Of a DNA stretch of 64,000 nucleotides, positions 3,436-51,586 are shown piece after piece. The translations under genes were made by a program, and so were the position numbers. The DNA is from Craspedostauros australis (taxonomy: Eukaryota; Bacillariophyta; Bacillariophyceae; Mastogloiales; Achnanthaceae). The stretch is from positions 1,178,001-1,242,000 of the forward strand of contig JAMXDE010000015.1 in NCBI GenBank assembly GCA_026770025.1, read 5' to 3'. Under the pieces are notes generated by a model that was given only the letters and a program-made list of their open reading frames with translations, was not told the DNA's origin and searched no databases. Positions within the stretch are counted from its first letter, which is position 1. Each line of letters opens with the position of its first letter.

Positions 3436-5153
3436 CCGAATGCACACAGGAAGGGTGTCGAGATGTACATGTGAGTATATATCAAGATGTACGTGTATAT
3501 GTGCATCGTTCACCCGCTATTCTCTCATACGCACTTGGACGGTATAACTATACTCGTGTCGATAGTATGCTGTGATTCGTCAGAATTACAGGGGAAATGG
3601 AACACACAAAAAGGGGCAAGATTTCTGGAGGAAATTTGCAAATAACGATTTCTGGAAGAATCAGAAAATCGTCCGTCCATGCATCAATGGTACCAAGAGA
3701 ATCTCGAGGTACTTCCCAACTAAACCTCAGATGACGATATCATCTGACAGACTACTGCATCACCAATGGAACGTGACATCTGGAGAGCAGAAGGACGCCT
3801 ACTGACGTCGACAGGATGTCAACATGTCACCACGTCGACAGCTGTCTCCAAGTCAGAGCAGGAGGCGAAGATACGATGACCCATGAAGATCATGGATACT
3901 GAAGGTGAACTTCAAATGGTAAGTACTCATGGAGTAGAAGCCAGTACTGAATGAACAGAGTGTCGAATGCGGAGTACGCATCGAACACGAAGCATCGTGT
4001 AGCACGAGCACACGATGTTGAGAGAGAGAGAGAGAATACAGAGAGGAGCGAGAGAGGATCTCGCGTACCGACTCATAGTCGGAGACCGAATCTACGAAAC
4101 AGATTGAAGCGCCGAGAGCATCGGGCAAGAGAACGGGCGTACACCGAGAGCATCGGAGTAGCCAAGTAATGAAATAGCAAACAGACGACTATCAACCAAC
4201 ACCATCTTCCACGATCGTAGGTTACCGTGCGCGGAACTTGCCAACACAGGTGAATCAAAGCAGTTGCTGGCACCTGGGGGGCACCGCGCTCATTAGCGTG
4301 CAAAATCCTGTTAGCATCAGGTACATCGGGCAAGCTGCTGCCAGATCTAAAACACGTATAGCAAGCTGATCCGTGGCACTCAAGGGAGGCACGGATTGGA
4401 TCGAAGGTCCAACTGGGTGAAACCAAAGGTGCATCACATCCTGGTGAAGCACAGCTGAACAAGCGCAAGAACACAGCGTTCGGAGAGACGAAATCCGAAC
4501 GGGCAGGGCCATCCAACGCGCAATCCATCCGCGACGTTTCATCGTTTTTCAAGACCAACAACCAACAAACATTCCATCAACAACGACCATTTGCGCTCAG
4601 TCCACCTTTCTGATTGGCTGTGAATTCCTACGGTTCACACAATCACTGGTGCGTCACATCGGTTCACAACTCCTTCGCCATCCCAGTCATCCATCGGACA
4701 TCGGTCGCGCGCCAACAAGTAATACAACCGGGAAATTCACACGGACCTGAGTGACATCTTTTCACCGGTCACCCTTCGCATCGGATTAAGTGTGGGTGTC
4801 TTCGCATTTTATCAATCGGGAAATTCACACGGTCCCGTCTGGCCTTCCATCCGTCAGTCAGTCACAATTCGAGACATTGCGCACGGATTAACCGCAGTCC
4901 ACTCGTGACATCACACCACCGCTGACGCCTTCGCCATCACTGGCGCTTTGCATCCGGCACCTCTTCCATTCCCGACGGATTCCGACAAGCGCAGAAATCC
5001 ACCGTCACATCCCAGCGAACGCTTCGACATCACAGCGGACGACACAGTCATTTCCAAGTGTGACCACTTTCCTGGGAGCTGCGGGAAAATACTCGTCCGA
5101 TAATATTAGCAAATTGGACCAACGACCACATCATCGCAACGCTCAACTACACG
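3436..5153. other. Non-coding stretch between two copia pol genes
   Basis: No credible gene is present. The interval should hold the 3' LTR of element 1 and the 5' LTR or leader of element 2. It contains a short GA-dinucleotide run near 4021-4034, a G/A-rich stretch at 3589-3617 that could include a polypurine tract, and the 16-bp direct repeats listed separately. I could not find a convincing LTR pair by eye. Confidence 0.6.
4729..4832 (+). repeat. 16-bp direct repeat in the leader of copia element 2
   Basis: The 16-mer CGGGAAATTCACACGG occurs at 4729-4744 and again at 4817-4832, 88 bp apart. Less exact echoes (TTCGCATCGGATTAAG and GCGCACGGATTAAC) lie near it. The repeat sits about 320-425 bp upstream of the gag start. 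It could be part of an LTR or an untranslated packaging or leader region. Confidence 0.7.
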
Positions 5154-8100
5154 ATGTCCAACGCAATCCCAATCAACGACCCCATCCTGGCGCACGTCCT
5201 CAGCGTTCTCGGATATGACGACTCATCCAATGAATGGCTTATCTTGCACAACGAAGAGATCCAAACCATCATGGATTTCGCTTCGCTCCATCGCGAAGAC
5301 ATGCTCGATATGGACGTCACCATCCAGGTGCCTGATCCAGGATCCGACTACGTAGCCCAACTGTCTAAGGTAGCAATCCGGAAATTCATAAATGCCATTG
5401 GCTGGTTCAGTGTTCAACCTAATCCCACTGCAGAGACGTGGCGGGAACTCAACCAAGCTTCGTACATGGAGTATGTCGCCCGGACGTTCACACCCTCGCC
5501 CGCATCCTCAGCTGCCATGCCCGATGGAACCACCAGCGCATTCCCCTTCGAACCAACGAAGACCGAACCAACGGAGAAGACCGGACGCGACCTCGCCACG
5601 GAGTTCAATCGTAGCATCAAGCGTAACATTAGCGACTACCCAAAGTTGTCTGATGACAAGTACTTCGCTACGTTCCATCGTCGTCTGCGTGCCACCGCTG
5701 CTGCTCATGGCATCTCCAATGTTCTCGATACTGACTACGTCCCGTCCGATGAACAAGCCGAGCTCTTCAAAGTGCAGTCCACCTTCCTGTTCAACGTGTT
5801 TGTATCCAACCTGCAGACCACGAAGAGTAGGAAGTGTGTCACTCCATACGAATCGATCTGTGATGGACAAGCCGTCTACTGCAGGCTGGTCCGCGAGTAC
5901 ACCACCGGTGCCACCGCCGTCAACACCATCCGACGCATCCGAGACGACATCATCAAATTCAAGCTGGATAAGCAGTGGCGCAAGACTCGTGAGCAGTTTC
6001 TGGACCTGTGGCAACACAAGGTTCACGAACTTGAGGCTTTGCGTGATGATCCAATCGACGACGCAACGAAGAAGGAGTGGTTGACCAACGCCATCGAGGC
6101 AGACAAGGCTCTGTACCAGTCTATCTTCCAGACTGACTACCTGCAGACCGCCATCCTGGCCTACTCACCCGGCAAGTCCGCAACCACCATGGAGTTCGAC
6201 ACCCTCGTGGAGCTCGTTCGGTCGTACGCCGTCCAACTCGATGGCCACGACGCCAACAAGCCAAAGACGCCACGGCAAGTCAACAACACCGACCAGCGCA
6301 AGCAACGCGGGAAGGATAAGGACGACGGACCCAATCTCTGGAAGCCCAACAAGGACTACAGCAAGGAGACACGAGAACGGCTGCCGCGAGAGGAGTTCCA
6401 GAAGCTGTCGGATAAGCAACGCAGCGACTTCCTCCAAGCCCGGCGAGCCAAGTCTGGACGTGGTAAGAAGGACAAGCCTAGGCGTTCCGCCAACAACACC
6501 AACCGCAGTGGATCCACATCCAACCAGAACGACCAACAGGACACTCAGACCAACGACAATGGTAGTAACAATAACGAGTCTAGTTCTACCGCTGGAACAG
6601 CAATCAACCGTATGCTTTCCAATGCCATGTCTAGCGCGTCCGGGAGCCCGCCGGCTACCCTCGTCGTTGACGGTCGCACCTACACCCTGTCTCACACGAA
6701 CGTATCGTACAAGTTCAACAACGCGAACGTGACTGTGCAAGGCGCATTGGTGGATGGAGGTGCTAATGGCGGCCTCGTTGGCGATGACATGCTGGTGATG
6801 GAGTCCACGTCCAACCGAGCCGATTTTTCTGGAATTGGTGACGCAGAGATCAAGGATCTGGCTCTGGTCACGGCCACCGCTGTCATCCAGACCATCTCAG
6901 GACCGGTGATCGGTTGGTTCCATCAGTACGCCAACTACGGGAAAGGGCGCACCATCCATTCTGCCAACCAACTCGCGGCATTTGGATTGGATGTCAATGA
7001 GAGACCCAAGAACCTCCCTGGCGGTCGGCAGACCATCGTCACGCCAGACGGATTCATCATCCCGCTCACCGTGCGTCAAGGCCTCGCATACATGGATATG
7101 CACAAGCCAACTCAGGCAGAGCTAGACGATCTGCCACACGTGTTCTTCACCTCCGACCAAGAGTGGGACCCATCTGTCCTGGACGGGGAGGCTGATCTGG
7201 ACAACATTCCCGCAACCGGACGCAGCGAAGACGACGACGTCGACATCACCATCTCCAAGTGCGTTCAGTACGCTCAATCCGCTGCAACGATCGGGGATGG
7301 GGAGAAGGCAGTCAAGGCCGGGCCACGCAACATCGTGGGTAAAGCGCCCAACTTCCATGCGCTACGACCGTACTTCGGGTGGATTCCAGCGGACCGCGTG
7401 CGTGACACTCTTGCATGTACTACCCAGTGGTACCGCATGTCTGAGCGTTATCCCATGCGTAAACACTATAAGTCTAGATTCCCCGCAGCCAATGTCAACC
7501 GACTTCACGATGTTGTTTCCATGGACACGTTGTTCTCTGACACGCCTGCTCATCATGATGGAGTCCCCGGACACGGTGGATGTACCATGGTACAGGTGTT
7601 TGTGGGATCCAACACGCGCCTCACAGCGGCGTACCCTCTGGCAAGCGAATCCCATGTTCCCCATGTTGTGCAAGACTTCATTCGGGAGCATGGTGCCATG
7701 GACGTGTTGATGTCCGACAACGCCACAGCGCAGATCGGAGGCAAGATGAAGGACATCCTCCGGCAGTACTGCATCGCAGACCACCAGTCCGAACCACACC
7801 ACCAACACCAGAATCCTGTCGAGCAACGCATCCAGGATATCAAGCGCACCACCAACGGCATCATGGACCGAACTGGCACCCCTGCCAGGTTCTGGCTCAT
7901 CTGCACCTTGTACGTCGTGGGACTGCTCAACCATCTGTCACAGTCCACGGCCGGTCACATCACACCCATCCAAGCCGCCACTGGCCAACGTCCCGACGTG
8001 AGCAAGTATCTCAGCTTCCACTGGTGGGAGCCGGTATACTACAAGGTTGGGAATGCTGCCTTCCCAGGCACCACGCAAGAACGGCGTGGACGCTGGGCTG

Positions 8101-9596
8101 GACCGTGCGAGCACAAGGGTGACGAGATGACGTTCTGGGTACTAGATGACGCAACGCAACGGCTGTTGCCACGCTCGAGCATCCGACGTGTGTCTGATGA
8201 CGCGCGAAACCTTCGGGCAGACTACCCCCTGCCTGATTCTGGGGAGGATGGTAACGTGGGTGACGAAGCTAGAGAAACCGAAAATCCAGAAGATTTCGAC
8301 AGTGACAGCACACCTGAAGCTAGACAACCCGTTGTGCATGCACTGTCTGACCTGGTAGCCACATCACATGGAGAATCAGATTCTGGTGTAGTCAAAGTCC
8401 CCAAATTCAGTCCTGATGAGTTGCTCGGATTGACCTTCCTCCACCAACAGGATGGACTCAAGTGGAGAGCTCGAGTGATCCGCAAGATCAAGGACGGAGA
8501 CGCAGCCAACCATGACAATATCAAGATGCTCATCGCATACGGCGACGACGACACTGAAGAGCTCATCGCGTATACGGATCTAGCTGACATCATCGAACAG
8601 CAGCACGAACAGGAGATTGGCGACGGGGAGATGTGCGTTTTCAAAGCCATCACCGGTCATGAAGGTCCGTTCCACTCCAGTCACAGCAAATACAACGGCT
8701 CCTCCTACAACGTAAAGGTACAATGGGAGGATGGCAGTGTGACCATGGAACCACTGGACGTGATAGCCAAGGACGATCCTGTCTCATGCGCGAAGTATGC
8801 CGCAGACAACAACCTCCTCGGTCTGCCTGGCTGGAAAAGATTCCGTAAACTAGCAAAGAGAAAGAAGAAACTCAATCGTCTTATCAATGCTAGTAAACGC
8901 AAAGCTCGTGCACAAGGTCCTATCTTCAAGTTTGGTGTTCAAGTTCCACGGAACGGGAAGGAAGCCCGCCAGCTTGATGAGAAGAATGGCAACTCCAAGT
9001 GGGTAGATGCTGAGAGAAAAGAAATGGATCAGCTCCACGAGTATGGCACGTTCAAGGATCTTGGAAAGAACGCTCGGAAACCAGATGGATACAAGCAGAT
9101 CAAGCTCCTCTGGGTGTACGATGTGAAACACGACCTTCGGCACAAGGCAAGATGCGTAGCAGGAGGCCACTTGACGGATCCATGCAAGGATATGGCATAT
9201 GCAGGAGTAGTCAATCTCAGATCATTCAGGATTGCACTGCTTGCTGCAGAACTCAACAACCTCAAGCCCATGGTGGGTGATATTGGTAATGCCTATCTAG
9301 AAGCCTACACAAAAGAAAAGATCTGTTTCATAGCTGGTCCTGAGTTCCAAGAGTTTGCTGGTCACATGATGATCATTGTGAAAGCGCTCTACGGACTACG
9401 CACGTCTGGTGCACGATTCCACGAGTCTCTGGCCGACACACTCCGTGACATGAAGTTCTTTCAGTGCAAAGCTGACCCGGATGTGTGGATGAGGGATGCT
9501 GGTAGATGCTGGGAATACATCTGTGTGTACGTAGATGATCTGATGGCCGTCATGGAAGACCCACAGTTATTCTTCGACACGCTCATCAACAAGTAA
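5154..9596 (+). CDS. gag-pol: copia gag-pol, up to the in-frame stop
   Basis: The start is ATG 5154 (MSNAIPINDPIL). About 480 residues of gag-like sequence end in a basic, Asn/Gln-rich linker. An aspartic-protease-like site follows (ALVDGGANGGL; the usual D-S/T-G is D-G-G here). The integrase core is read from SMDTLFSD, LMSDNATAQ and NPVEQRIQD (D-D-E). Next come a chromo/Tudor-like segment (YNVKVQWEDGSV) and reverse transcriptase (KQIKLLWVYDVKHD, GDIGNAYLEA, YVDD at 9528-9539). TAA 9594-9596 ends the frame about 18 codons after YVDD, inside reverse transcriptase. The next codons in the same frame continue homologous sequence, so this is a nonsense interruption of one polyprotein, or possibly a read-through site. 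Confidence 0.88.
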   Translation: MSNAIPINDPILAHVLSVLGYDDSSNEWLILHNEEIQTIMDFASLHREDMLDMDVTIQVPDPGSDYVAQLSKVAIRKFINAIGWFSVQPNPTAETWRELNQASYMEYVARTFTPSPASSAAMPDGTTSAFPFEPTKTEPTEKTGRDLATEFNRSIKRNISDYPKLSDDKYFATFHRRLRATAAAHGISNVLDTDYVPSDEQAELFKVQSTFLFNVFVSNLQTTKSRKCVTPYESICDGQAVYCRLVREYTTGATAVNTIRRIRDDIIKFKLDKQWRKTREQFLDLWQHKVHELEALRDDPIDDATKKEWLTNAIEADKALYQSIFQTDYLQTAILAYSPGKSATTMEFDTLVELVRSYAVQLDGHDANKPKTPRQVNNTDQRKQRGKDKDDGPNLWKPNKDYSKETRERLPREEFQKLSDKQRSDFLQARRAKSGRGKKDKPRRSANNTNRSGSTSNQNDQQDTQTNDNGSNNNESSSTAGTAINRMLSNAMSSASGSPPATLVVDGRTYTLSHTNVSYKFNNANVTVQGALVDGGANGGLVGDDMLVMESTSNRADFSGIGDAEIKDLALVTATAVIQTISGPVIGWFHQYANYGKGRTIHSANQLAAFGLDVNERPKNLPGGRQTIVTPDGFIIPLTVRQGLAYMDMHKPTQAELDDLPHVFFTSDQEWDPSVLDGEADLDNIPATGRSEDDDVDITISKCVQYAQSAATIGDGEKAVKAGPRNIVGKAPNFHALRPYFGWIPADRVRDTLACTTQWYRMSERYPMRKHYKSRFPAANVNRLHDVVSMDTLFSDTPAHHDGVPGHGGCTMVQVFVGSNTRLTAAYPLASESHVPHVVQDFIREHGAMDVLMSDNATAQIGGKMKDILRQYCIADHQSEPHHQHQNPVEQRIQDIKRTTNGIMDRTGTPARFWLICTLYVVGLLNHLSQSTAGHITPIQAATGQRPDVSKYLSFHWWEPVYYKVGNAAFPGTTQERRGRWAGPCEHKGDEMTFWVLDDATQRLLPRSSIRRVSDDARNLRADYPLPDSGEDGNVGDEARETENPEDFDSDSTPEARQPVVHALSDLVATSHGESDSGVVKVPKFSPDELLGLTFLHQQDGLKWRARVIRKIKDGDAANHDNIKMLIAYGDDDTEELIAYTDLADIIEQQHEQEIGDGEMCVFKAITGHEGPFHSSHSKYNGSSYNVKVQWEDGSVTMEPLDVIAKDDPVSCAKYAADNNLLGLPGWKRFRKLAKRKKKLNRLINASKRKARAQGPIFKFGVQVPRNGKEARQLDEKNGNSKWVDAERKEMDQLHEYGTFKDLGKNARKPDGYKQIKLLWVYDVKHDLRHKARCVAGGHLTDPCKDMAYAGVVNLRSFRIALLAAELNNLKPMVGDIGNAYLEAYTKEKICFIAGPEFQEFAGHMMIIVKALYGLRTSGARFHESLADTLRDMKFFQCKADPDVWMRDAGRCWEYICVYVDDLMAVMEDPQLFFDTLINK

Positions 9597-10613
9597 AAGT
9601 ACAAGTTGAAAGGTGTAGGACCAATCAAGTATCACCTCGGCGCAGACTTCGACCGTGACAAAGACGGAACCCTGACTATGAGCCCGCAATCTTACATCAA
9701 ACGGATGCTGGCGAATTACGAACAGGTGCATGGGGAGCTTCCACGGACCTACACCAGTCCCATGGAACACAACGACGCCCCAGAGCTAGACACATCACGC
9801 GAACTAAACCCTGTAGAGACCAGACAATTCCAATCACTCATCGGCGCCCTTCAATGGTGCATCACATTGGGACGGTTTGATATTGCTGCAGCTGTGATGA
9901 CTTTGTCTAGATTCAGAGCCCAACCCAGGATTGGTCACATGGACCGCGCCAAACGTGTGTATGGATACCTCCGAAAGCGTTCTGATGCCGCCATCAGGTT
10001 CAGAACGGGAATTCCAGATCACGAGCGCTTCTTCAAGGTTCCTGACCATGAATGGATGTACTCTGTATATGGTGACGCCGGAGAGGAGACTGCAGACGAC
10101 GATCCAGCACCCAAAGGCAAGGCAGTTCGAATGACGACGTTTGTAGATGCCAACCTCATGCACTGCAAAGTGACAGGCAAATCTGCAACTGGTGTTCTCC
10201 ATCTGCTCAACCAAACACCCATCGAATGGTTCAGCAAACGCCAGACTACCGTCGAGACTGCAACCTACGGATCGGAATTCGTAGCGGCAAGACAGGCAAC
10301 AGAGCAAGTGATTGCGATGCGCCTCACTCTTCGTGCAATGGGGATTCCACTGGACGGACCTGCCTGGATGTTCGGAGACAACCAGAGCGTGATCACATCC
10401 TCCACCATCCCAAACAGTGTGTTGTCCAAACGACACAACGCATTGGCGTACCACCGCGTGCGTGCCGCAGTAGCTGCGAAGATCCTGCATTTCTGCAAGA
10501 TAGACGGAACGGAAAACGTAGCCGACGTCATGACCAAGTTCCTTCCATGGGCGAAGTACTGGCCGTTAGTGAGGCCGCTTCTGTTCTGGAAAGGAGAGAC
10601 TCTGGGTGGATGA
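9597..10613 (+). pseudogene. copia pol 3' part (reverse transcriptase end and RNase H) after an in-frame stop
   Basis: This is the same reading frame as the preceding gag-pol, resuming straight after TAA. It starts KYKLKGVGPIKYHLGADFD, the expected continuation of copia reverse transcriptase. The RNase H part shows TTFVDANLMHCK, ETATYGSEFVAARQATEQV, MFGDNQSVI and SKRHNALAYHRVRAA. It ends at TGA 10611-10613. It has no ATG of its own near the start (only a TTG at 9606), so it is not expected to be expressed alone. The rest of the frame is clean, which suggests a recent single lesion or a functional stop. Confidence 0.85.
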
Positions 10614-11211: not shown

Positions 11212-13703
11212 TCAATTGACACACCAATAACATAGCAACCAAATACACCAAACATCTCCAACTTCACCTATTGGATTGATCACCCAGGCGGCGTCGTAAG
11301 TGCAGTGTTTGGTGCTCCCCTCTTGTCCTGTGTGTAATTGCTGATTATCAGGGAGAGACTCAATGTCTTGGACGAATTGTGTGCATGTGCCCACATCGTC
11401 GTCGCAGAGGACGACTGGTCCGGAGGTGAAGCCCGCAGCAACCTCCCCAGCCTTGTTCAAGCAAAGGGTCTGCAGGATGGTCTTGTTGATGGTCGGGTGG
11501 CTTGATGGGACAGAAGTTGGCAGATCGGACGGCTGCTCTGTTGGAATCATTGTTGGGGTATCGCTTGCCAGCGGAGTAGGGGCGAAAGTCGGGCAATCTG
11601 TTGGGAGTTGGTCTTTGTTGATGCAAAATTGATCGACCAGTTCGTCGGTTGCACCATCATCGTCTGCGGGGCAGGCGGCATCAGCATCCTAGAGAACGAA
11701 GACTTCGTCGCTGTTGCAGTTGGTTTTCGTCATGCATTTGTAGCACGCGTAGGCGTAGTCACAGCCATATTCTGGCACAATTATGTCAGTCGTCACTGAG
11801 TCATTGAATCCCAACTCTGTGCAAGCGTAGTCTGCGGTGCAGGCACTATCGCCGATGATCAAGCTGCCCTGAATCTTCGCAGGTGATGGCAACGATGTGC
11901 ATCTGCAGCGATAGTAACCGCTCGCATGTGCTGCGATGCATGCAAACTCACCAAGGCATGCGTTGGACCCAATTGTGACGTGGCTCTGGGAACGGCTGGC
12001 CCCGACTTGTGCACCGCGGAAGCCAACGCCCGCACAGGCGTAGGGTCCAACGCAGGCGCCGCTTTGTATGATGACGTCTCCGTAGGAATATCTGCCAGCG
12101 ACGGTGCAGGAAATAGGATCAGTGCAGGCCAGTTGACCAATGAAGGTGACACCGTACGTTGGGTGAGGACCATCGCAATGGGAAACATAAAGAGAGTTCA
12201 CGCGGGCGCATGCCCCTTTGCTGGTGCAGGATGAATCCAGGACCAATGGGTTTAGTCCCATGTCAAAGCAAGATTCATACCCAACACAGGCAGTGTCGGC
12301 AATGGTCATGAAACTGTAACTGTCGGCACTGGTACAGTCATAATCCTTTGCACAGCATGGAGCCCCGGCATCCTGGCATGCTTGGTAGATGTCATCACCA
12401 CCGAGAGCTGTGAACAGAGTGGTGCCAGCAGCGGACAATAGCGTCAGCTCCTCAGCAAGTATGGGGTTGGACGCATATCGATTGAATAGCTTGCGCGCAT
12501 CCCCCTCGGTCAAGAGGCCAGCGCATGCAAAGTAATTCTGCAATCCTGGTGTGCTTCGAACAGCAGTGATGGCCTCGCGGCACGATGTCTTGGATGGATT
12601 GCAGATGATGGTCTTTGGCTCGGATGCCTCCGGCGCAAAGTATCCTGGCACAACATCTGGCTTGCAAGTCACAGAGATGCTGGAATCAAATGCAAATGAG
12701 ATGGTAGTTGGTGCAGATGTAGGCCCCGAGGTTGGCATGGAAGTTGGTCTGCTTGTTGGCTGGTCGGTCGGTGACGAGGTAGGCCTCAAGGTTGGATTGC
12801 TGGTTGCCAAGGCAACTGGCCGCCCGGTTGGCCTCGAAGTTGGTGCCGATGTGGGAGAGCTGGTAGGCGAACTGGTTGATGCCACACTGGGATTGCTGGT
12901 CGGATTGTTGGAGGGTGCTCCCGTCTGTTTGTTTCCCTTGAAGTTCTTTGGGATGAGACCGCCGCCGGCCTTCAGCAGTCTGGTTGCCTGCATCGCAACA
13001 TGAAGTTTGTCAGTTGGGTCAACCAATCTACGGCCGCGAAGGATGGCATCGATCGTCTTGCATTTGGCGAGCAAGATCGCCGTGATGGTCGCTGCCTTGA
13101 ACTTGAGCATCTTCAGTTTCTGCGTGATCTTTGCTTGGTGGTGAGTTGCTGGAATGCTGTTGCTTTCCTCTCTAATTCGGATGAGTGATATGCTCTTGCT
13201 CGTATTTGCTTCGAGACTCCTTCACACTCGTGACTGGATCGGTGCTTTCGGTTGTGTTGATTTTGTCTCTTGCGCTTCAGCGTTCTTGCAGGAGGATTGT
13301 GCTGCACGGTTGCGCAGGATGCATACAGTACCACATTGATCATGTGCGCACCACAAGATAGGAGAAGAAAAATGGAAACCGCAACAGTGGCAAGAATGTG
13401 GATTGGGTGAGCCGTGCATGCATCATTCACAGGATTGGCAGCTGAGGTGATTACAATGTCGTGGTGATTGGCGAAGCACTGCACAATCGTACTCGTAGTT
13501 GAGCAGTCAGTGCCTCGCCTCTTCCGATACCGCAGCGGCAACACATTCGTGCAGTATGCAATTGTCTGTCGTTGTGCTGGCCGGATGGATGGATACCTGC
13601 GGCATGCTGCGTTCGCCGACGACGATGAGGACAACAACGGCCGAGTGGAGCGAGATGCGTCTTTCTCTTGCTGCTCCGGAGTCATCGTCATGGAACCGGC
13701 CAT
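11212..13703 (-). CDS. Membrane-anchored PTxxP/Cys-rich protein with an in-frame TAG
   Basis: The best-supported part is 13110 to 11689: a Pro/Thr/Ser linker of repeated PTxxP-like units (SPTSSPTSAPTSRPTGRP), then about 300 residues rich in Cys with recurring ACxGxxAC-like units (SACVGPYACAGVGF, NACLGEFACIAAH, SACTADYACTELGF). Upstream, an ORF from ATG 13703 encodes a polar N-terminus and one hydrophobic segment (ILATVAVSIFLLLSCG). A GT-AG intron at 13149-13225 (77 nt, phase 1) would join it in frame. Downstream of TAG 11689-11691 the same frame stays open to TGA 11212-11214 and again encodes Cys and PTxxP sequence (PTEQPSDLPTSVP). I infer a type II membrane or wall-associated extracellular protein of unknown function. 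The TAG may be a nonsense mutation, a sequencing error or read-through. Confidence 0.58.
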
Positions 13704-24639: not shown

Positions 24640-25962
24640 TCATGGGATCAGGTCGATGTATTCTTCGAATGTCAGCTTGTGCGATTGGTACCGTGCAGAC
24701 TGCTGATTGCCATTCATGGTGCAATGGATGTTGGCGAGGAACGCAGCAACAAAATGAATGAGTGTGAGAGGATTCTGTAGCGTTTTGTTGGCGTTGCGAA
24801 CGCTGACGAGGGGGAAATTCTTCGTGATCTCCTTGAATGCCCACTCAACACAGATGCGTCCCGACGACATGTCCTTGTTGCACTGCGCCTCAGAGGACCC
24901 TGGAACAGTGTCCTTGTATGCAGCGAATATGTATGGTGTAGTAGGATATGCTGCATCACCGTAGAGACGATATGGAGGATTGTTCTCATCCAACGGCATG
25001 AGAGCCTCCAGTCGCTGTTCGATTTTGCTTTGCTGGAACATGTACCCGTCACTGCGAGCACCTGCAATCGGCCCAAAGTAGTGAATGAGCAACCCATCTG
25101 GCGCAACGATTCCTTGATAGTGCAGCCCATGACCGCGTTTATAGCCAGAGTAGAGGTCCTCTTGATTCTCTGAGGGACGACAGGTTTCCCAAAACGTGCC
25201 GTCGACGTAAGCGAACACATCGTCCACCAAGCCGTGGGTGAGACGGTGATTGTTCTCCGCATAGTCGGGGAATCGAGTATGAAACAAACCGATGTCGCTC
25301 AGGTAGGGCATGCCAACGGCATAGAAGTAGGAGTAGAAAGTGGAGGCAATACTGGAAATGCGGTTGCTGTCCATGCTGAATCTCTGTTCCATGTCACACA
25401 GCCGTCCGCGATGTGCCAGACGGAACAACATGACAAGCAATCCCATTTCGTATGATACCGTGTATCGACTCTTCACTTGAATGCATGCAGGATCTGCCTC
25501 ACCGGACACTGCCTGAAACTTGGGCCAGAGACGGTCAGCCAGACGTTGAAGATCACGCACACGGAAACGAAAGTGACGAACACTTTCGCGTTCGTCCAGT
25601 TCCGCAATGGCAATGTTCCTGTTGGTGAACATGGGAGGAGGTCCCAATGGAGTGAGGTAGAGTTGCTGCATTTGTAGCACATGACGGCCCAATGCAACAA
25701 TGTTGCTATAGTGCTGAACCAAAATGACGACTCCTGCATAATCCAGACGTTGGACGTCGATGTCTGCAAGCTGAGCGATGGCAGCCTCGAATCGAGCGCT
25801 GGCTTCTTCCAATGCCTGCCGCTCGGGAACAGTACTCCAATTACGATTGACCATGACAACGATGGTATGTAGTGATCGAACGCGCAGAGGAGCTGTGTGT
25901 GCGAAGGTGCGATGAACACAGACGAATTGAAGGAGCAGCGAGTATAGCATGACATATAGCAT
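24640..25962 (-). CDS. PIF/Harbinger DDE transposase (HARBI1-like)
   Basis: 440 residues from ATG 25960-25962 (also ATG 25950 and a later MVNRNW start) to TGA 24640-24642. The catalytic triad of the DDE_Tnp_4-type nuclease is intact: Asp254 in AYVDGTFWE, Asp336 in LYGDAAYP and Glu373 in ICVEWAFKEI. Other family hallmarks are the helix-turn-helix-like region before the core (SMDSNRISSIASTFYSYF) and YFGPIAGARSDGYMFQQS between the first and second Asp. It cuts and rejoins DNA at the terminal repeats. No frameshift or stop is present. The gene reads outward-to-inward from the right side of the element and ends against the SANT-like gene. Confidence 0.92.
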   Translation of the reverse strand: MLYVMLYSLLLQFVCVHRTFAHTAPLRVRSLHTIVVMVNRNWSTVPERQALEEASARFEAAIAQLADIDVQRLDYAGVVILVQHYSNIVALGRHVLQMQQLYLTPLGPPPMFTNRNIAIAELDERESVRHFRFRVRDLQRLADRLWPKFQAVSGEADPACIQVKSRYTVSYEMGLLVMLFRLAHRGRLCDMEQRFSMDSNRISSIASTFYSYFYAVGMPYLSDIGLFHTRFPDYAENNHRLTHGLVDDVFAYVDGTFWETCRPSENQEDLYSGYKRGHGLHYQGIVAPDGLLIHYFGPIAGARSDGYMFQQSKIEQRLEALMPLDENNPPYRLYGDAAYPTTPYIFAAYKDTVPGSSEAQCNKDMSSGRICVEWAFKEITKNFPLVSVRNANKTLQNPLTLIHFVAAFLANIHCTMNGNQQSARYQSHKLTFEEYIDLIP

Positions 25963-26202
25963 GGAGGGAACACATCATGCAACAACAAAAAAGGAACCGA
26001 TGATGTGTTGTCACACTCTTGGCCAAAATGTGACGCTCTTCGGGAGAAGTGAAAGCGAACATGTCTAAATTAGATACCCTAGAGATGGCGCGAACGGTTA
26101 TTGACTCCACGTAATCCAAGCAGTATTCTGTCACGCACCAGTCCTGTGCAGTTTCCGTCACTCGAGAGTCAATGTCGGTGTGACACCTCGTCTGGGGGCC
26201 TC

Positions 26203-42753: not shown

Positions 42754-44055
42754 ATGACTTCTCACGCAACATCGACGAGACCGCTGTCAAAAATGACTCT
42801 GGTCGTGTGCATGATGCTTGCTCTCATGGTGGCGCAGACAGTCACTTCGCAGAGATTGAGAAGGGCTCGTGCTAACGCAATCAAGCCAACGCGAATGCAG
42901 AGGTTTCTGTGGAGTGATTACTCTTCGAACGATGACGAAACTTCAGGTGATAGCAACGCGAGATCAGGGTGAGTACAACTACAAGTGAAACGCGGAACGT
43001 CTCCAGCGAGTGGACGGCCGGATGGATGGATGAATAGTTGGATAGATGGATGGTTGGATGAGCAAATACATTGATGGAGCGCATGACCTCTTGTCGACTT
43101 TGGCGAACGCAAAGTGTTTCTCTGCTGTCTAGTGTAAATGCCAACTCACATGACACTGAACCGCATCTTTTGTACGGCGCTCATATTCATTGCTGGCTTC
43201 GAATGGAACAACCGCCAACATTTGCACACAAACAGGAGTTATGACAACGATGAGGATGGTGATAGTGGAGAAGTAGTGCACAAGCGATCCAAGTACTCCG
43301 GTCCATCTGGACCAAGCGGAGGAAAAGGCAAGGGCAGCAAGGCATCCAAATCTACCAAAGCGCCAACCTCATCGGATGAGTCCGGCGATGTCGATGTTCC
43401 AACGGCAGCGCCAACCATGGAAGGGAATTCAACGGAGGAGCTGCCACCGCTGGGATCCAATGTGACTATCATCGCATTCCAGCCAAACGACCCATCTGTC
43501 GTGCCACCCACTCCTGATGGCAGCGACCTTGATGCGGGCACTCTCTTCCTCTACACTAACTTCACAAGAAATGCAACCAACGTCAGCAATTTCGAGAGCA
43601 CCGCCTTCGTTGATCTCGAGGCTGCGCTCTTGGTCTGGACGCGTGTTGATGGATACTGTCAACGTCTCGAGGATGGCGAGAGTTCGGGCCTGTGCCGATT
43701 CACTTACACAGTGGCCGATCCAGAGACGGAAGCAGAGATCGGATCGTTCGTGGCATCCGGTTTCCTGAAGTTGCGACCAGGTGGTGGCGATATCATCTCC
43801 GCGCTCAACGGCGAGGACAGCGGAGACTCTTCGGAGGCAGAGAGCGCCACATTGTCGGTGAAGGGTGGAACCGATCTGTTCGAAGGCGTAACTGGGCAGG
43901 TATTCATCAACCCTGCGGATCTCGACTTGGACTTTGATCCGCCGAGAGTCGTGGAGGCAGAGGGCGACATCCTCACGGAACCCATGGGATACGTGCATGG
44001 AATTTTCCTCATTCTGGATAGCTTCTTCGGGACGGCCATGGAAGCACGCCGATGA
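42754..44055 (+). CDS. Secreted Lys/Ser-cluster protein A with dirigent/AOC-like C-terminus
   Basis: Exons 42754-42968 and 43236-44055; 267-nt phase-2 intron (GTGAGT...ACAG); 344 residues. I chose ATG 42754 because it places a signal peptide at the N-terminus (MTLVVCMMLALMVAQTVTS nearby); ATG 42511 would add 81 Gln-rich residues. After an SQRL/RRAR basic stretch and an acidic stretch comes a Gly/Lys/Ser cluster (GGKGKGSKASKSTKAP) and a PTAAPT linker. The C-terminal 200 residues share a pattern with genes B-D: ageTLFLYTNF-like strand, a Cys before (L)CRFTYT, SFVASGFL and TLSVKGGTDLFEGVTGQVF. The last motif resembles the G-G-T-x-x-F-x-G-x-x-G turn of dirigent and allene-oxide-cyclase barrels. 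It is probably exported to the wall; its function is unknown. Confidence 0.78.
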
Positions 44056-44897
44056 GTGCACGAAGCTCAAATTTGACTCGATCATTCTACCTGTACCCAT
44101 GTAACATTATCATACCCTGCCATAGAAGACGACGCAATGTAAACTAGCAATAGAGAGTCAATCTCTAGAGAGCAATCGGCACAATCTCCACAGGGCCAAT
44201 GTGTGCCGGATGATACATCTCTGATAAGCAGCGTCTTCGACCTCGTTTCTCACAGCAAAGAAGTCGTTGAATGAAGTCGTCAGGGTATGTGGAAGAACTT
44301 GTCCGTCGGTAGACAGCTGGACGAACGGCACAATCCATGGATGCCCAAGGAAGGAGCACACCATCACTCTACGGGTACTCTGCGGGTACTCCATCCATTC
44401 GACAGGACTGGCGATGGTCCCAGAGCAGGCTGAGGCCGCTCGTCGGATGCTCGATCATCATTGTCGTGGTCCAGATCCATCACGCTCGGACTCATGATGA
44501 TGACTCAGTCGACTACAACTTGCTATCTAGTCGTGGATGGGACCACGACCACTTTCGCGAGCGGGCCGCCAACATGGCGCACGGAGAGCTGCTCCTTGCG
44601 GCCCACTCACAAAATTTTCCGAATGGTGCCGTTCATCCCAATTTTTTGGCAGATGTGGTCCTCGTGGCCTTCCTTGTCGACCATCGTTACCGATCGCCGA
44701 GTGCTGTCACAACGCCGTGCGCTACGAGCATTGCGAACAGAGGGCCGAGTGGAACGGGATCAGCTGTCGACATCAGCAACATCATCATCGCTGCCGTCAT
44801 AACAAGACAAAAGCGCATCTCGTAGCAGCGGAAGCAATCCCATCCAAACACCCGAATACCAAAACGATCGACAAAAGCACAAAGCAGACAAACGACC
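44056..44897. other. Intergenic region between secreted proteins A and B
   Basis: 842 bp without a recognisable gene; only short overlapping frames are present. Confidence 0.5.
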
Positions 44898-46178
44898 ATG
44901 AAGCCATCCTTGCTATTGACTACATCGTTGGTATGCCACTTGGCATGCGTTGCCAACGCAGCGATTCTGATGAACCCAGACGAGAGAGCCGCAGATGTGG
45001 AATCCCCCGAGACGACCACGAGAAAGCTGCGAAAGCTCATCGACAACAACACCATGATCGTGAAAGGAGAGAAGAAGCAGAGGCAGCGAACACGGAAGCT
45101 ATCCAAGTCAAACAAAGAAGACAGTGAGAGCTCCACGCTGAAGGAGGGTACCAAGGATTCCACCACAGAAGCTGCTGAATCCGACCAACAAACACCATCC
45201 GCTGGATCCGATGACAGCGATGAAGACTCCGATGAAGACACAACCAGAGACAACAGGTGAGAATCGTCGAAGTGTACACACTCACACACAAGTACCTGCT
45301 GTTTCGTTGCTGCATAGAGTCGTTTCCGTTTCATTAACATCATTTGAAGAGCATAACGTCATGCCAAGACATCGTCCAGCACACGGCGCATGTTCTTGTT
45401 CTTATTCACGTGCTCACCCTTTTTGGCTCCTTCGTCACACCATGCACTGCGCACTCCATGAAACTGTTGCCGTCAATACTCGTACGACATAAACATTCAC
45501 ACAAACAGCGAGGATGAAGACATGGTGTATTCAAGAAGCACCAAGTCCCCGAAGACAAGCAAGTCCTCCAAGACATCAAAATCTGGAAGCAGTGGAAGCG
45601 GCAGCGGCGATAGCTCAGACCCGACGACGCCAGAGGTCCCAATCTTCATGATGTTCAACGGATACGTGGACACCAGCATGTTGCATTCTCCTGTTTCACC
45701 AGACCCGGAGGCGGGCGACGCCTTCCTTCCTGGCACCACATATGTGTTCGCCAACGAACGCTTGTTCAACGTCTTTGACGGCGAAGTTCTGGGACAGGAA
45801 GGCCGTCTCCAAGGACAATGCATCCGCACGGATGCCAACCCACCCAGCGACGCGGACAACTACGAAGGGCGTGGGTATTGCCAGTGGACGTTGGAATTCT
45901 ACGAAGCCATGTCGGATCCTCCGGAGATCATCGCCACGTTGTCCGCGGAAGGACCAGTCAGCAACGACGACAGCTCCAAGCTGGTGGTGACCTCTGGATC
46001 TGGCGGACTGTTTGGCGTCACGGGTGATGTGATCGTGATTCCATCCGCGGTGGACGATGGCGGTCTCAGCGACGCCGATCGCGACTTTCTCGACCTTCCC
46101 AACGATGATGGATTCGAACTTCGCATTGAGGTTGCCGTTATGCCACGATTCGATCTCGAGGGAGAGATGATGAGCTAA
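44898..46178 (+). CDS. Secreted Lys/Ser-cluster protein B with dirigent/AOC-like C-terminus
   Basis: Exons 44898-45256 and 45509-46178; 252-nt phase-2 intron (GTGAGA...ACAG); 342 residues. The signal peptide is clear: MKPSLLLTTSLVCHLACVANA. Two R-K-L tripeptides follow (TTRKLRKLIDNN, RTRKLSKSNKED), then a long acidic Ser/Asp/Glu run that crosses the intron, then a dense Lys/Ser cluster (STKSPKTSKSSKTSKSG). The C-terminal domain shows AGDAFLPGTTYVFANERLF, GQCIRT, GRGYCQWTLEFYE, IIATLSAEGPV and SGSGGLFGVTGDVIVIP. The two Cys of CIRT and YCQW recur in genes C and D. Lys/Ser clusters and R-x-L sites are reminiscent of diatom silaffin-type precursors, which is inference only. Confidence 0.82.
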
Positions 46179-47319
46179 TCATAGAGGAACAGAGAGGCAG
46201 CACGGTTGCGTCGTGTAATATCATACTACTACAACCTGTCGTATTACAACAATAAAGAAACACGCTTTATACGTCTCTTGCTTTTGGTGATTATCGTATG
46301 ACCGCCCCACATCGAATACAGCTCCTGCGCTCATCGAACCACACAACCTTAGTCCTCTCTCCAGAATCTAGCATGATATACTTGTCTGATGGGCAGTGTT
46401 GCAGGACGCACATACTACCAATCATTGGTCATACGAGCTGCCGCGCACAACCAACCAGGCCACCATGGAGCGTTCGCCTGCACCGGTTCGAAGGACGGCA
46501 GATTTGGCGCGAAAGAAGTCATCGCGGCGGTCGATCTGACTCATTCGACTCACAGTTGTCGAAATCCGTCAACCAACGTCCACGACCAACTTCCGAACAT
46601 GTTCTGGTCACAAAATCGGGCGTTGGCATCTCTTTTTCCGATGTGCGCTTTGTCGCCAACACCGATTGCATCTCCGTGGTCTGAGAGTCCGCATATCTCT
46701 GTGTGCAGTTCTGTGTGCGATACATACGGTTATTGTTTGTTGTTATTGGTCGTCACTATTCGGGTGCGCATTGTCGTCGGCAGGCTTGCGTCACGCCTTC
46801 CACGCATCCGAAGCACATGTTCCGAGCTGCGCCATGAGCCCAACGATCGCAACTTTGGCGTGGACAGCCTGCGGTAATCGGGGTGCGCGATCAAATTTTT
46901 GGTCATCAACGGCCTCACATTTTGGCAGCTGACGCTCCGACTCGTGCTCCTGCATCCGTGTCCCTGTCCCTGTCACACGAAGCAGTCATCCACCATCGCA
47001 TCGAGCAGCGACAAAATCTCTGACATCCATCTTGCAGCCAATACTCCTGCCGCGCGCAGAGTATGGACTGGCATTGACAGCAGGCGCTCCTGCTCTTCCA
47101 TTATCTCGCCATCATCAGCCAGCACACAATACGATCGGTGTTCACAGTCTCGATCGCTCTCGCACTTACAACATACACACACACGCACGCACACTCCATT
47201 GCATCCAGAATACGACACACCGAGACATTGTTTGGCCTCATCCTGTCCACACCGTCAGCCATTCCATAAAGGCAACGCATCCTGGTACATTCCTCCAAGA
47301 CAGTGAACAGCATACGACA
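46179..47319. other. Intergenic region between secreted proteins B and C
   Basis: 1.1 kb without a convincing gene. AATAAA at 46251-46256, 73 bases after the gene B stop, is a candidate polyadenylation signal. A CACACA/CGCACGCA run near 47172-47192 lies in the gene C leader. Confidence 0.5.
46251..46256 (+). terminator. Candidate polyadenylation signal of gene B
   Basis: AATAAA hexamer 73 bases past the stop codon, in an AT-richer stretch. Confidence 0.4.
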
Positions 47320-49285
47320 ATGAAGGCAGAACTGTTCCTGGCCGCGACGCTGATCGTGGCAACAGCACAGCTTGCATCATGCACACCAGACGAGCATGCT
47401 GATCTTGATCAGCTCATCCGAACAAATCCAGTCGATCGTATCTATGAGGATGCAACGATCGACTTCTTGAAGAAGACGGGCATCTTGCCAAGCACCAACG
47501 ACATCAATGCGCAACGACGACTTGCCACGCATCACCATCATCATGTCAAGTATGTGGATGAAAGAGATAGATACCCCGAACCAGATTACAAGTACAACAA
47601 CAACAACAATGGCCGCCACAATCCACAGCAGAACCAGCATCACCAACAGCAGCAGGGTGGTGGACACAACGGGAACCGTAATCATGGTGGAAACTCGAAC
47701 CGCAACCACAACAATGCCAACGTCAACAACGACGGCAACGACGGCAACTACGACAATTATGGTCGCAGTTACAATTCCAACAACAGCGACAACAGAGATA
47801 ACAACGACAAGACCTACGTCGAAGTCGGAACATACAGCCTCAACGGGGAGCAGTCGGACTACTGGGATGACGACGACACCGTGCCGGGCGACGACACCGT
47901 TGTGGAGATTATCACGGATGATACTGTCGACGACGATTCAGACAACCGAGCCGACGGATCCTCCGGTAACGATCAACCTGGCCAGATGGATGGAGCCGAG
48001 AGCGCTGTTCCAACTCCATCCCCAAGCAACGCCGACACCCTGACTCCAACAGAGACTGGAAGTGATGAAGAAAGCGACGAAGATGATGGCGAAGACGGAG
48101 ATGAGGACGGCGACGAGGATGATGAGGACGACGATGAGTAAGTCATGTTCACGTTGCCTTGTGGCCGACAGTTCTTCTATTCTGTCTTGCACACAATAGG
48201 TGCCTTTTTGCTACATGCTTCACACTGCGTTCAAATCACTAACTATGCCCACTCATCTCCACCAACATGCCTCCTCCAAATTCGCCTTCTTTCCTACTCA
48301 CTCTCGTACCCCCTCTGACATGTACATTTACAGTACTCTGCTGTCTCGTCTTGTGTTTTCGGGATTCTTCCACAAGACCATGTCTGCGACCACCGTTCTC
48401 AACGCACCCGGAAACTTGGAACAGTGTGTCGACGGATCCGGACCACGCACAGCTCCACCAAACATCACGCTCACTCCGACCGAGACGTTTCCACCATTCC
48501 CGTCCATGGTGCCAACCCAAACTCCCTCACCAACTATAATACCAGTTGTGGGAGTCACACCATCACCCACCGCACTTAGTGAAACTCCATCGACTGCGCC
48601 ATCTGCTGCGCCATCTGCTGTGCCGACTGAGGCCACCGGCGCCGACGCAACCAACGTGCCATCTGCAGCCACAACCATGGCCCCAAGCGTTGTACCCAGC
48701 GCAGCTCCAAGCGCCGTCCCATCCGAGAGTGGAGCTTCTGCTACTTCTGGCGCATCGTCCTCGTCAGGTGCGCTGACGATCGAAGAGACGGTCGACATGG
48801 GCAAAAGACGGCTCAGTGGAGAGAACAGCGAACCGGGCACGACCTTCGTCTTCCTGGACGCGCCCCTGGAGAATATTCAGATGCTCATGTTCGGTCCCTT
48901 GATGGGACTGGTGCAGGGAGCCTGCAAGAGAACTGATTGCTTCGGCAAGGCCTACTGCGAGGTTGTCGTTGAACTCCTGGACGAAGATGGTTTCGTCGCC
49001 TTGTCCTTCACCGCAGAAGGACCAGTCGAGAATGGCAAGAACGCTCTGAGCATCACGGGTGGGCAGAGTGTGCTGTTCGGAGTCACTGGACAAATCCTGG
49101 TCACTCCAGGCGACTACGGTGGCGATTCCGGCAACCCTGAGGTGGAGACCACTGAAGATACTTCCATCGATTTCCTCGAGGGCACTGACGGGTACATGAT
49201 GGACTTTGAGCTGCTGCTGGATCCAAGATATCAAATCCTCTTTTTTGGTGACGATGATGATGACGAAGCAAGCACCGAACGCTAA
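47320..49285 (+). CDS. Secreted Asn/His/Asp-rich and PTxxP protein C with dirigent/AOC-like C-terminus
   Basis: Exons 47320-48137 and 48334-49285; 196-nt phase-2 intron (GTAAGT...ACAG); 589 residues. The donor is strong; the acceptor is the one that fits phase, and a different 3' site cannot be excluded. Signal peptide MKAELFLAATLIVATAQLAS. After AQRRLATHHHHH come a long Asn/Gly/His-rich stretch and Asp/Glu runs that end exon 1. Exon 2 has a mucin-like Pro/Thr/Ser/Ala linker (PSAAPSAVPTE repeats) and then the shared C-terminus: PGTTFVFLDAPLE, GACKRTDC, KAYCEVVVELLDE, LSFTAEGPVENG and SITGGQSVLFGVTGQILVTP. It lacks the Lys/Ser cluster of A, B and D. The His5 and Asn-rich blocks suggest metal or surface binding, unproven. 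Confidence 0.78.
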
Positions 49286-50083
49286 GGCTCGGACAGTGCG
49301 CCCATCGCGGATGAGGTATTGGGGAAGCGATGCAATATGATATGATGCGATCTTGGATCAGCAAAGATCGACTCGATTGAACCCCACAGTCAACACATGT
49401 GAAAAAGGCGTTGTACATTAGAATCACAATGGTACCATACTCTCTAGAAATAGCAATAATCTCTTGAGTTTCCGCCAATGAATTGAATCGAGTGCGTATC
49501 GCTGGAGAGAAAGAAAGATTAAATCGGGTAGAATTGCAGTTGCGAGCACTCAAGACGCCATTGTCACCCTCGAGTGTAGAACTGTGGCCTACGATGGAGG
49601 AGTAAACGAATTGTCTCCGGAATGTCCACGTTGCCACTGTTGTCTCCCCAAGCGTTGGCGTCTTCCTCCTCGCAGAAGTACGGCAACCGCATGGCAGCAT
49701 TGCTGGAGACTTGAGCCATCACGCGGATGCCCATGGCGCTCGCGACCTCATGCCCCCAAGTCGGAACATGATGGTGTCACTCTGCCCATGTGTACCCGTT
49801 TCGGCGTGTCTGGAGCAAGGAAAAGTGAGCACTCAAAAATGACTCCAACGCTCGTGATAATGCAGTCGAGCGGGTCGAAATGGCGGCGACGGTTATAAAA
49901 GCGTTTTCTCTGTTGACGCAAAACGATTCGGCATTTTTTGTCGCCACAAATTGATCCGGTGAAGCGGAGTGAGAAAAATGGGTTTGGGTTGACAACAAGA
50001 GACTGCGCGATGCTGTGACGGGAGCATCTGTGTGAGCAACTGCTTCATCGCGATTCATTGAAAATGAAAACGAAAGTTCGTTG
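49286..50083. other. Intergenic region between secreted proteins C and D
   Basis: 800 bp without a recognisable gene. The right part contains the TATA-like site listed separately. Confidence 0.5.
49894..49901 (+). promoter_or_regulatory. Candidate TATA box upstream of gene D
   Basis: TATAAAAG lies about 190 bp upstream of the gene D ATG, in otherwise GC-rich sequence. The assignment rests on sequence alone. Confidence 0.3.
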
Positions 50084-51586
50084 ATGTTCAGAATGGTGCC
50101 GCAGAGCGTGATAGAAACAGTTGATGGAATGGCCACGACGATGAGACAAGCTTCGGAAACATCGAGACTGCAAACGGCGGCGATCATGACGATGAAGGCT
50201 GGCGGAAGCCGGTGTTCGAGGGCGCTCCTCCTCAGTCTGATCTGTTTGTGCATCCAATCGGGATCGACGCAGCAGAATGGAGGTGCTGTATATGCAATCC
50301 ATCCTCGGGGTGGGCGTCGGCAGGAGGTTCCTCAGATTGCTTCGATGCTGGAAACAGCTGAAGTTGAGATCGAAGCCGAGCCCTCGATGGCAAATGGAAG
50401 GACATTTCGATTTGAGCACAAGAGTATGCCTCGATCAGTTTCCAAGAAACCGTCCAAGCGGCACCGTCAGTACTATCAGCAACAGGAGCAGCGGCAGGAG
50501 TATCAGCCCGGCGATAGGCCATCGGACAACCACAAGTTCAGCAAGGTCAGACGACGATACGAAGACGAGGACGGCAAAGACTACGATAGCAGTTTTCAAG
50601 GAGAAGACATCAACGGCATTGACAACAACAAGGAAGAAAATGGTGATACCAATGATTCCAGCCATGAGAGGTACGATGATAGCGATGACTATCAGAGCGC
50701 CCAATCCCGCGGCCTTCGAGGTGAGGGAGTTCGACGTCTCACAAAGAGTTCTAAAAGCTCGAAGAGTTCCAAGAGCAGCTCTAGTCGCAGCAGCAGCCGC
50801 AGCCGCAGCAACGGAAAAGGCTTCCTCGGAAAGGGCAGCACGAAACCCCCAACAGGAAAAGGAGCCCCGGTTCACCCGCCGACACGAGCACCGACAGGAG
50901 GGGGAGGGCCTGCACCTACAGCAGCGCCAGTGGGAAAAGGCACTCCGAATCCGGGACCAGGCAGTCGGTCAAAGGTGGGATCCAGAGACAAGACGAGCAG
51001 CGACAGCGGAGATAGCGGTCCTGACATGATGGCGCCCAACCCAGAAGACTGCTTTGTGACATCGACGCTGGACTTCTTCCAATTCGCATCTCGCGCTCGC
51101 CGCTCGGACACCAACCCAGTGTACGTGAATCCCGCAATCCCCGACGATCAGGAATTCGGAACGGAGTACATTTACAACGATGGATTGCTGCGGAACCCCA
51201 CCATGGAAGAGTTCACGAACTCCTTTGCCACTGGCCATTGCACCCGCACCCAAAAGCGGACTGTGATGGCGGATGGCAACTTCGTCAGCGGAGGCGGATA
51301 CTGCGTGTTTACGTACACCTTCTTCGATGGCGTGCAAAGCAGGACGTGGAACGTTGCTGGTGAGATCTTCGACGCCTTCGGTGGGACGATGGCGGTCACC
51401 GGGGGCACCGACGACTTTCTGGGAATGACGGGGCAGATCAAGCTGATGCCGGTGACGAAGACGGGGCAGATCGACACGGGAGATATCTTCGTGGCTCCGG
51501 ATCTGTACGACATCGAGGCCACGTTGATCAAGAATGACTGCCTCACACCGTCTTCACCCACAACGTCGACGCGGCGGTTCAGATAG
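50084..51586 (+). CDS. Secreted Lys/Ser-cluster protein D with dirigent/AOC-like C-terminus (intronless)
   Basis: One exon, ATG 50084 to TAG 51584-51586, 500 residues. In-frame ATGs at 50186 and 50192 would put the hydrophobic signal (RALLLSLICLCIQSGS) nearer the N-terminus and may be preferred. The middle is Gln/Tyr/Arg-rich then acidic, then RGLRGEGVRRLTKSSKSSK followed by Ser/Arg repeats, and a Gly/Pro/Thr linker (KGAPVHPPTRAPTGGGG). The C-terminus matches B and C: FGTEYIYNDGLLRN, GHCTRTQK, GGGYCVFTYTFFD, WNVAGEIFDAF and AVTGGTDDFLGMTGQIKLMP. Unlike A-C there is no intron between the acidic and Lys/Ser parts. It is exported by inference; a wall or silica-matrix role is a hypothesis. Confidence 0.82.
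   Translation: MFRMVPQSVIETVDGMATTMRQASETSRLQTAAIMTMKAGGSRCSRALLLSLICLCIQSGSTQQNGGAVYAIHPRGGRRQEVPQIASMLETAEVEIEAEPSMANGRTFRFEHKSMPRSVSKKPSKRHRQYYQQQEQRQEYQPGDRPSDNHKFSKVRRRYEDEDGKDYDSSFQGEDINGIDNNKEENGDTNDSSHERYDDSDDYQSAQSRGLRGEGVRRLTKSSKSSKSSKSSSSRSSSRSRSNGKGFLGKGSTKPPTGKGAPVHPPTRAPTGGGGPAPTAAPVGKGTPNPGPGSRSKVGSRDKTSSDSGDSGPDMMAPNPEDCFVTSTLDFFQFASRARRSDTNPVYVNPAIPDDQEFGTEYIYNDGLLRNPTMEEFTNSFATGHCTRTQKRTVMADGNFVSGGGYCVFTYTFFDGVQSRTWNVAGEIFDAFGGTMAVTGGTDDFLGMTGQIKLMPVTKTGQIDTGDIFVAPDLYDIEATLIKNDCLTPSSPTTSTRRFR

Follow-up and report, generated by a model that had tools for sequence, protein, structure and literature searches.

How highly charged, predicted-disordered silica proteins are placed in space is a question on which light may be shed by a cluster of tandem genes in the diatom Craspedostauros australis (genome of 74.8 Mb in 90 contigs). 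The cluster lies in a stretch of 64,000 nucleotides, referred to here as the window (contig C13, JAMXDE010000015.1, positions 1178001-1242000). Its four genes, called A to D, are all on the forward strand at window positions 42754-51586; a fifth member of the family, gene E, is on contig C52. We propose, with moderate confidence, that A to E encode secreted proteins of the silica or wall matrix, with silaffin-like ampholytic tails borne by a domain resembling allene oxide cyclase (AOC). A charged tail joined to one conserved folded domain would provide a definable, expressible unit for testing placement, oligomerization, and tail chemistry.

The C-terminal domains form one homologous family

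The C-terminal domains of A to E are homologous, which upholds the shared C terminus that an earlier sequence-only reading of the locus had described for A to D. In a jackknife analysis, a profile of four domains recovered the left-out fifth in all five cases, with E values of 1.7e-10 for A, 4.2e-17 for B, 1.1e-17 for C, 2.8e-19 for D, and 6.4e-21 for E. Neither 10,000 shuffles nor the 364 remaining window frames gave an E value better than 0.0067, and chance homology was thereby ruled out. Gene E was found by a genome search with D (E value, 7.5e-21). The domain cores span positions 43537..44052 in A, 45729..46151 in B, and 48833..49231 in C, and the domain of D spans 51017..51541, all on the forward strand. 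Their alignment with E has 12 invariant columns, including G-x-C-x-R and a second Cys. Of the motifs listed previously, the GGT/G-x-x-F-x-G-x-T-G block recurs with variations, and C-x-R-T is exact only in B, C, and D; it reads C-x-R-L in A and, outside the locus, C-x-R-H in E.

The exons and splice sites of A to D were inferred from the sequence alone. Gene A has two exons (42754-42968 and 43239-44055, 343 amino acids [aa]), with an equally good alternative acceptor 3 bases earlier (exon 2 from 43236, 344 aa). Gene B (44898-45256 and 45509-46178, 342 aa) and gene C (47320-48137 and 48334-49285, 589 aa) also have two exons, and gene D (50192-51586, 464 aa) has one. The three introns, absent from the earlier account, are all in phase 2. 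In A and B, exon 1 encodes the hydrophobic N terminus, a variable stretch, and an acidic block, which in A continues into exon 2; exon 2 of both encodes the Lys cluster, a linker, and the C-terminal domain. Exon 1 of C is Asn/His-rich and strongly acidic, and its exon 2 holds only a Pro/Thr/Ser-rich linker and the domain. A tandem repeat coding for Asp/Glu (48059-48144) lies where exon 1 of C ends, beside the splice donor, and the length of this acidic run may change through repeat slippage.

The paralogs are 24-37% identical to D, with D and E at 37%. Because D and E share this identity, lack an intron, and have extra Cys residues near both domain edges, whereas A, B, and C have an intron in common, the family likely splits into two subfamilies. 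Genome searches with single proteins (E values up to 10) returned A to E and a few weak places. These searches score the best candidates only, so that five is a lower bound and further members are possible. Places on C44 (E value, 0.154), C10 (0.948), and C13:1450252 (0.844) were judged to be chance matches once their frames or sequence had been inspected. Scans of genome contigs and viral contigs, which detect close relatives only and covered no eukaryote genome collection, confirmed no relatives.

A likely remote relation to AOC and dirigent barrels

The A-to-E domain is likely a remote relative of the AOC/dirigent superfamily, and three profile routes point there. When the five-domain profile was compared with the PDB (E values up to 10), all six matches were AOCs (0.0035-1.1); the profile of reversed sequences found no AOC among its four matches, which were unrelated (best E value, 0.84). 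Compared with Pfam, the D domain matched Dirigent over residues 18-146 of 175 (E value, 0.0056; 0.029 with the whole protein), and its reversed copies gave no Pfam match. The third route was a genome search with Pfam AOC_like, which reached a place on contig C4 (E value, 0.0103) belonging to two short, divergent tail-less genes (about 1383012-1384476), each with an AOC_like-type domain. These two are 31% identical to each other, and no Lys cluster appears in those of their frames that were inspected. One of them matches AOC_like with an E value of 1.3e-4 and 22.1 bits (cut-off, 25.9); the other has no match.

The profile of the C4 pair aligns in register with the A-to-E family over 90 columns (hhalign probability, 50%; P = 1.6e-4), compared with a probability of 2.4% for the reversed control. 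A profile of A to E plus the C4 pair had AOCs as the top six of its ten PDB matches (E values, 6.8e-4 to 2.7e-3), the remaining four having E values of 1.3 or worse. Adding the pair extends the AOC match to the G-x-C stretch, where the first of the two Cys residues invariant in the family lines up with the AOC Cys. No more than about 36 to 77 profile positions are covered by the match. A phmmer search of the PDB with a C4 paralog gave 38 weak rows (best E value, 0.022), mainly antibody light chains or single-chain variable fragments and no AOC, and was taken as noise.

The barrel-like C terminus of the sequence-only reading is thus borne out as a resemblance reached by three routes, with every Pfam match below its cut-off; that the fold is an eight-stranded barrel we infer from the profiles. 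The likeness to the AOC, dirigent, and AOC_like families (PF06351, PF03018, and PF18678) consists of these subthreshold matches, and A to E differ from them in having two invariant Cys residues, charged tails, and predicted secretion. The tail-less C4 pair would fit an older, plain barrel that was later given charged tails, and such paralogs within the same genome offer a natural comparison.

Hydrophobic N termini and R-x-L sites

Signal peptides were judged from hydropathy alone. A signal peptide had been ascribed to each window gene, and the hydrophobic start is clear in A, D, and C (best 12-residue means of 2.98, 2.54, and 2.39, respectively) but weaker in B (1.85). In the longest reading of E, the best such mean over residues 1-45 is 0.44; a hydrophobic stretch lies near residue 62 and would serve as a signal peptide only if a Met farther along is the start of translation. 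Beyond residue 45, the largest 19-residue mean is 1.48 in A to D and 1.47 in E, the latter being its N-terminal hydrophobic stretch. By hydropathy, none of the five has a transmembrane helix following a lumenal part, the feature used for Silicanin-1 and the SAPs.

P values for R-x-L, KSSK, and pentalysine motifs come from composition-preserving shuffles of the region from residue 26 to the domain. At least one R-x-L occurs in each of the five proteins. The excess over chance is clear only in B (three sites, P = 0.0014) and marginal in E (four sites, P = 0.040) and D (two sites, P = 0.043). All the sites located in the window are on the forward strand. Gene B has three RKL sites at residues 42, 45, and 66 (45021..45101), and in D an RRL at residue 181 (50732..50740) stands three residues before the KSSK cluster. 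Gene A has RFL at residue 50 (42901..42909, P = 0.19) as its only R-x-L after the hydrophobic N terminus; the QRL listed by the earlier reading does not have the R-x-L form. In C, an RRL at residue 66 (47515..47523, P = 0.40) lies just before the His/Asn-rich stretch, and a second is at residue 431 (48806..48814), the edge of the barrel domain. Such sites, noted in the earlier reading, are present in A to D; they exceed chance in B and marginally in D, the counts in A and C being at chance level.

Ampholytic tails in four proteins and an acidic tail in the fifth

Lys clusters were defined as four Lys residues with spacers of one or two Ser/Gly/Thr/Ala/Pro residues, in frames of at least 80 aa. 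The pattern occurs in 3 of the 368 window frames, namely, A, B, and D, as had been noted from the letters; it is also found in E and is missing from C, the middle of which is instead Asn/His-rich with a Pro/Thr/Ser-rich linker. The clusters of the window genes, all on the forward strand, are of the pentalysine type in A (residues 101-112, 43324..43359, P = 0.010) and in B (residues 132-144, 45543..45581, P = 0.25), where it comes right after the intron and an acidic block of Ser, Asp, and Glu. In D the cluster is KSSKSSKSSK (residues 185-194, 50744..50773, P = 0.0002). A pentalysine cluster (five Lys in 12-14 residues) is present in A and B and not in C, D, or E; KSSK occurs three times in D, once each in A, B, and E, and not in C.

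An acidic block is present in all five proteins (P = 0.0065 for A, 0.001 for B, <0.0005 for C, 0.04 for D, and 0.004 for E). Comparison of block and cluster positions shows that in the four proteins with a Lys cluster (A, B, D, and E) the block comes before it. An automatic acid-before-base flag came out negative in B, C, and D, where its Lys window sat elsewhere (residues 56, 35, and 72). With an acidic block preceding the Lys cluster, A, B, D, and E have ampholytic tails; the tail of C is acidic. The plain polycation or polyanion tails that had been suggested are accordingly replaced, for A, B, and D, by an acidic block combined with a Lys cluster. The charged, low-complexity middles described for A to D were confirmed: net charges of the middles are -2 in A, -7 in B, -48 in C, +10 in D, and +13 in E, and those of the domains are -23, -26, -25, -13, and -15, respectively.

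Comparison with silica-associated proteins

A screen for silaffin-like proteins (SFLPs) used a signal peptide and repeated KXXK; of 10 new SFLPs, 8 had a pentalysine cluster and all had R-x-L (PMC5501833), a motif that each of A to E contains. The family resembles the silaffins and SFLPs of Thalassiosira pseudonana in the hydrophobic N termini, the Lys/Ser clusters (of pentalysine type in A and B, KSSK repeats in D), some R-x-L sites, and PT-rich stretches (criteria of PMC5501833), so that the silaffin-type likeness proposed from the letters was sustained for the clusters and some of the R-x-L sites; it differs in the conserved, presumably folded domain at the C terminus. Only D has repeated KXXK in the strict sense (X = S or G), and pentalysine is found only in A and B, with neither in C. 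The fit to the SFLP rules is thus best in D, partial in A and B, less in E, and absent in C, and the five as a whole are not filed as SFLPs because D alone has repeated KXXK.

The KSSKSSKSSK of D is also like the Lys-enriched regions of the cingulin CinW2 (PMC9650480). Cingulins carry Trp/Tyr-rich alternating regions (PMC4557024), whereas the A-to-E domain is a homologous, nonrepetitive unit. Candidates in PMC9650480 were picked for having a signal peptide, for lacking transmembrane segments, and for containing a Lys-enriched region or some other motif; by hydropathy and motif, A, B, and D show the first three of these features. Both proteins studied there were located in the frustule, one of them having 593 residues and a 24-residue Lys-enriched region (PMC9650480). 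Gene C recalls Silicanin-1 (Sin1), in which RRL after the N terminus is followed by an Asn/Gln-rich region (PMC5525289), since its own RRL precedes a His/Asn-rich stretch. Sin1, however, has a transmembrane helix, and C has no second hydrophobic stretch above a mean of 1.27 over 19 residues. For the most part, silaffins, cingulins, and silacidins are highly charged, with disorder predicted (PMC5525289). The parts of A to E are of known kinds, and their combination of tail and barrel looks new. We found no report of this architecture in the open-access literature and, among the papers listed by title, none that ties dirigent or AOC domains to diatom walls; the work of Skeffington in 2022, reportedly a survey of the silica-associated proteome in three diatoms, could already include such proteins.

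A proposed role in the silica or wall matrix

We suggest that A to E enter the secretory path via the hydrophobic N terminus and that at least some members are trimmed at R-x-L. As in silaffins, Lys residues would perhaps be methylated or polyamine bearing and Ser residues phosphorylated. The Lys/Ser stretch and the acidic block would together be ampholytic and bind silica, polyamines, or further matrix proteins, and the AOC/dirigent-type barrel would hold several tails together or bind a wall ligand. Gene C would supply an acidic, Asn/His-rich partner that lost the Lys cluster or never had it. Such a matrix role would most likely be played in the silica shell or in the organic layers that belong to it. 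Both AOC and dirigent proteins are reported to be trimers. A bolder version, which we consider rather unlikely, is that the barrel oligomerizes and so fixes the number and geometry of the tails, paralogs with differing tails forming hetero-oligomers that pattern silica. An arrangement of tail and barrel suggests a way to hold loose, shell-building peptides on a defined scaffold.

Several observations weigh against a role in the silica or wall matrix. The Lys-cluster pattern was written after the sequences had been seen, which leaves E as the only independent case and qualifies the odds, near 5e-7 by hand arithmetic, of three randomly placed clusters all falling among the four barrel frames. 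The pentalysine cluster of B is expected from its composition (P = 0.25), Lys density in 18-residue windows exceeds composition in none of the five proteins (all P > 0.05), and R-x-L is not above chance in A (one site, P = 0.19) or C (one site, P = 0.40). In one cingulin, the half with two Lys-enriched regions seemed to be without a targeting signal (PMC9650480), so that Lys clusters would be insufficient for targeting. As for the domain, no match reaches a curated Pfam cut-off (D scores 16.9 bits against Dirigent, for which the cut-off is 29.1), phmmer with D or E singly finds nothing in the PDB, and genome searches with PF03018 and PF06351 were empty, as were their controls, which makes these searches uninformative. 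Amphipathicity of the beta-strand type is below P = 0.05 in two of the five domains (P = 0.048 for A, 0.035 for B, 0.290 for C, 0.921 for D, and 0.628 for E).

A to E might instead be mucilage, adhesive, or extracellular matrix proteins unrelated to silica, with the barrel binding a polysaccharide or some small ligand and with the stretches that are charged or Pro/Thr-rich serving as ordinary stalks or mucin-like linkers. The linkers vary in richness across the family and are Pro/Thr-rich in C, D, and E, N-glycosylation sequons occur in all five proteins, gene C has no Lys cluster, and the window encodes another secreted PT-repeat protein without the A-to-E domain, all of which would suit such a function. 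PT repeats cannot tell the two readings apart, since PMC5501833 found them in 14 of its silaffin-like and KXXK proteins as well, and the Lys clusters of A, B, D, and E, which are of the frustule-targeting type (PMC9650480), argue for silica. We give the mucilage or adhesive function some weight but regard it as unlikely.

The closest solved relatives of the domain are AOCs, and the alignment of the first invariant Cys with the Cys of the AOC G-x-C stretch could mean that A to E are enzymes or helpers that, within the secretory path, act on an oxylipin or phenolic much as AOC or dirigent proteins do, with the tail as a targeting device or anchor. Such a function seems improbable given the shortness of the AOC match, the low identity of the paralogs to D, and a Cys pair on would-be neighboring strands that suggests a structural disulfide. 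It is more doubtful still that unrelated secreted proteins have come to look alike by composition. The low-complexity middles and the several motif counts within chance are what such convergence would produce, but domain homology far beyond shuffles and a phase-2 intron common to three of the four genes oppose it; the jackknife refutes convergence for the C-terminal domain, and it may still hold for the tails taken one by one.

Silicon transporters and other features of the window

Searches for silicon transporters (PF03842) gave 90 match pieces, spread over many contigs of the genome, 32 of which cover at least 483 of the 513 profile positions, and 28 of these 32 contain no in-frame stop; so many genes indicate that the host is a silicifier. 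Three to five copies are typical, with one to six in 37 Thalassiosirales genomes (PMC10700740). Four forward-strand loci that were read are 96-100% mutually identical.

Within the window, a separase gene (Peptidase_C50) lies upstream of A to D on the opposite strand. The PT-repeat protein is encoded at 11689-13218 on the reverse strand; it begins with a hydrophobic stretch, contains PT repeats (Pfam PT; E value, 5.1e-9), and matches DUF7640 below threshold, and the tests made found no relation to A to D. Two long forward-strand frames, at 1-3435 and 5064-10613, look by eye like copia-type retrotransposon polyproteins, and a transposase-type gene occupies 24640-25971 on the reverse strand (DDE_Tnp_4; E value, 4.5e-19).

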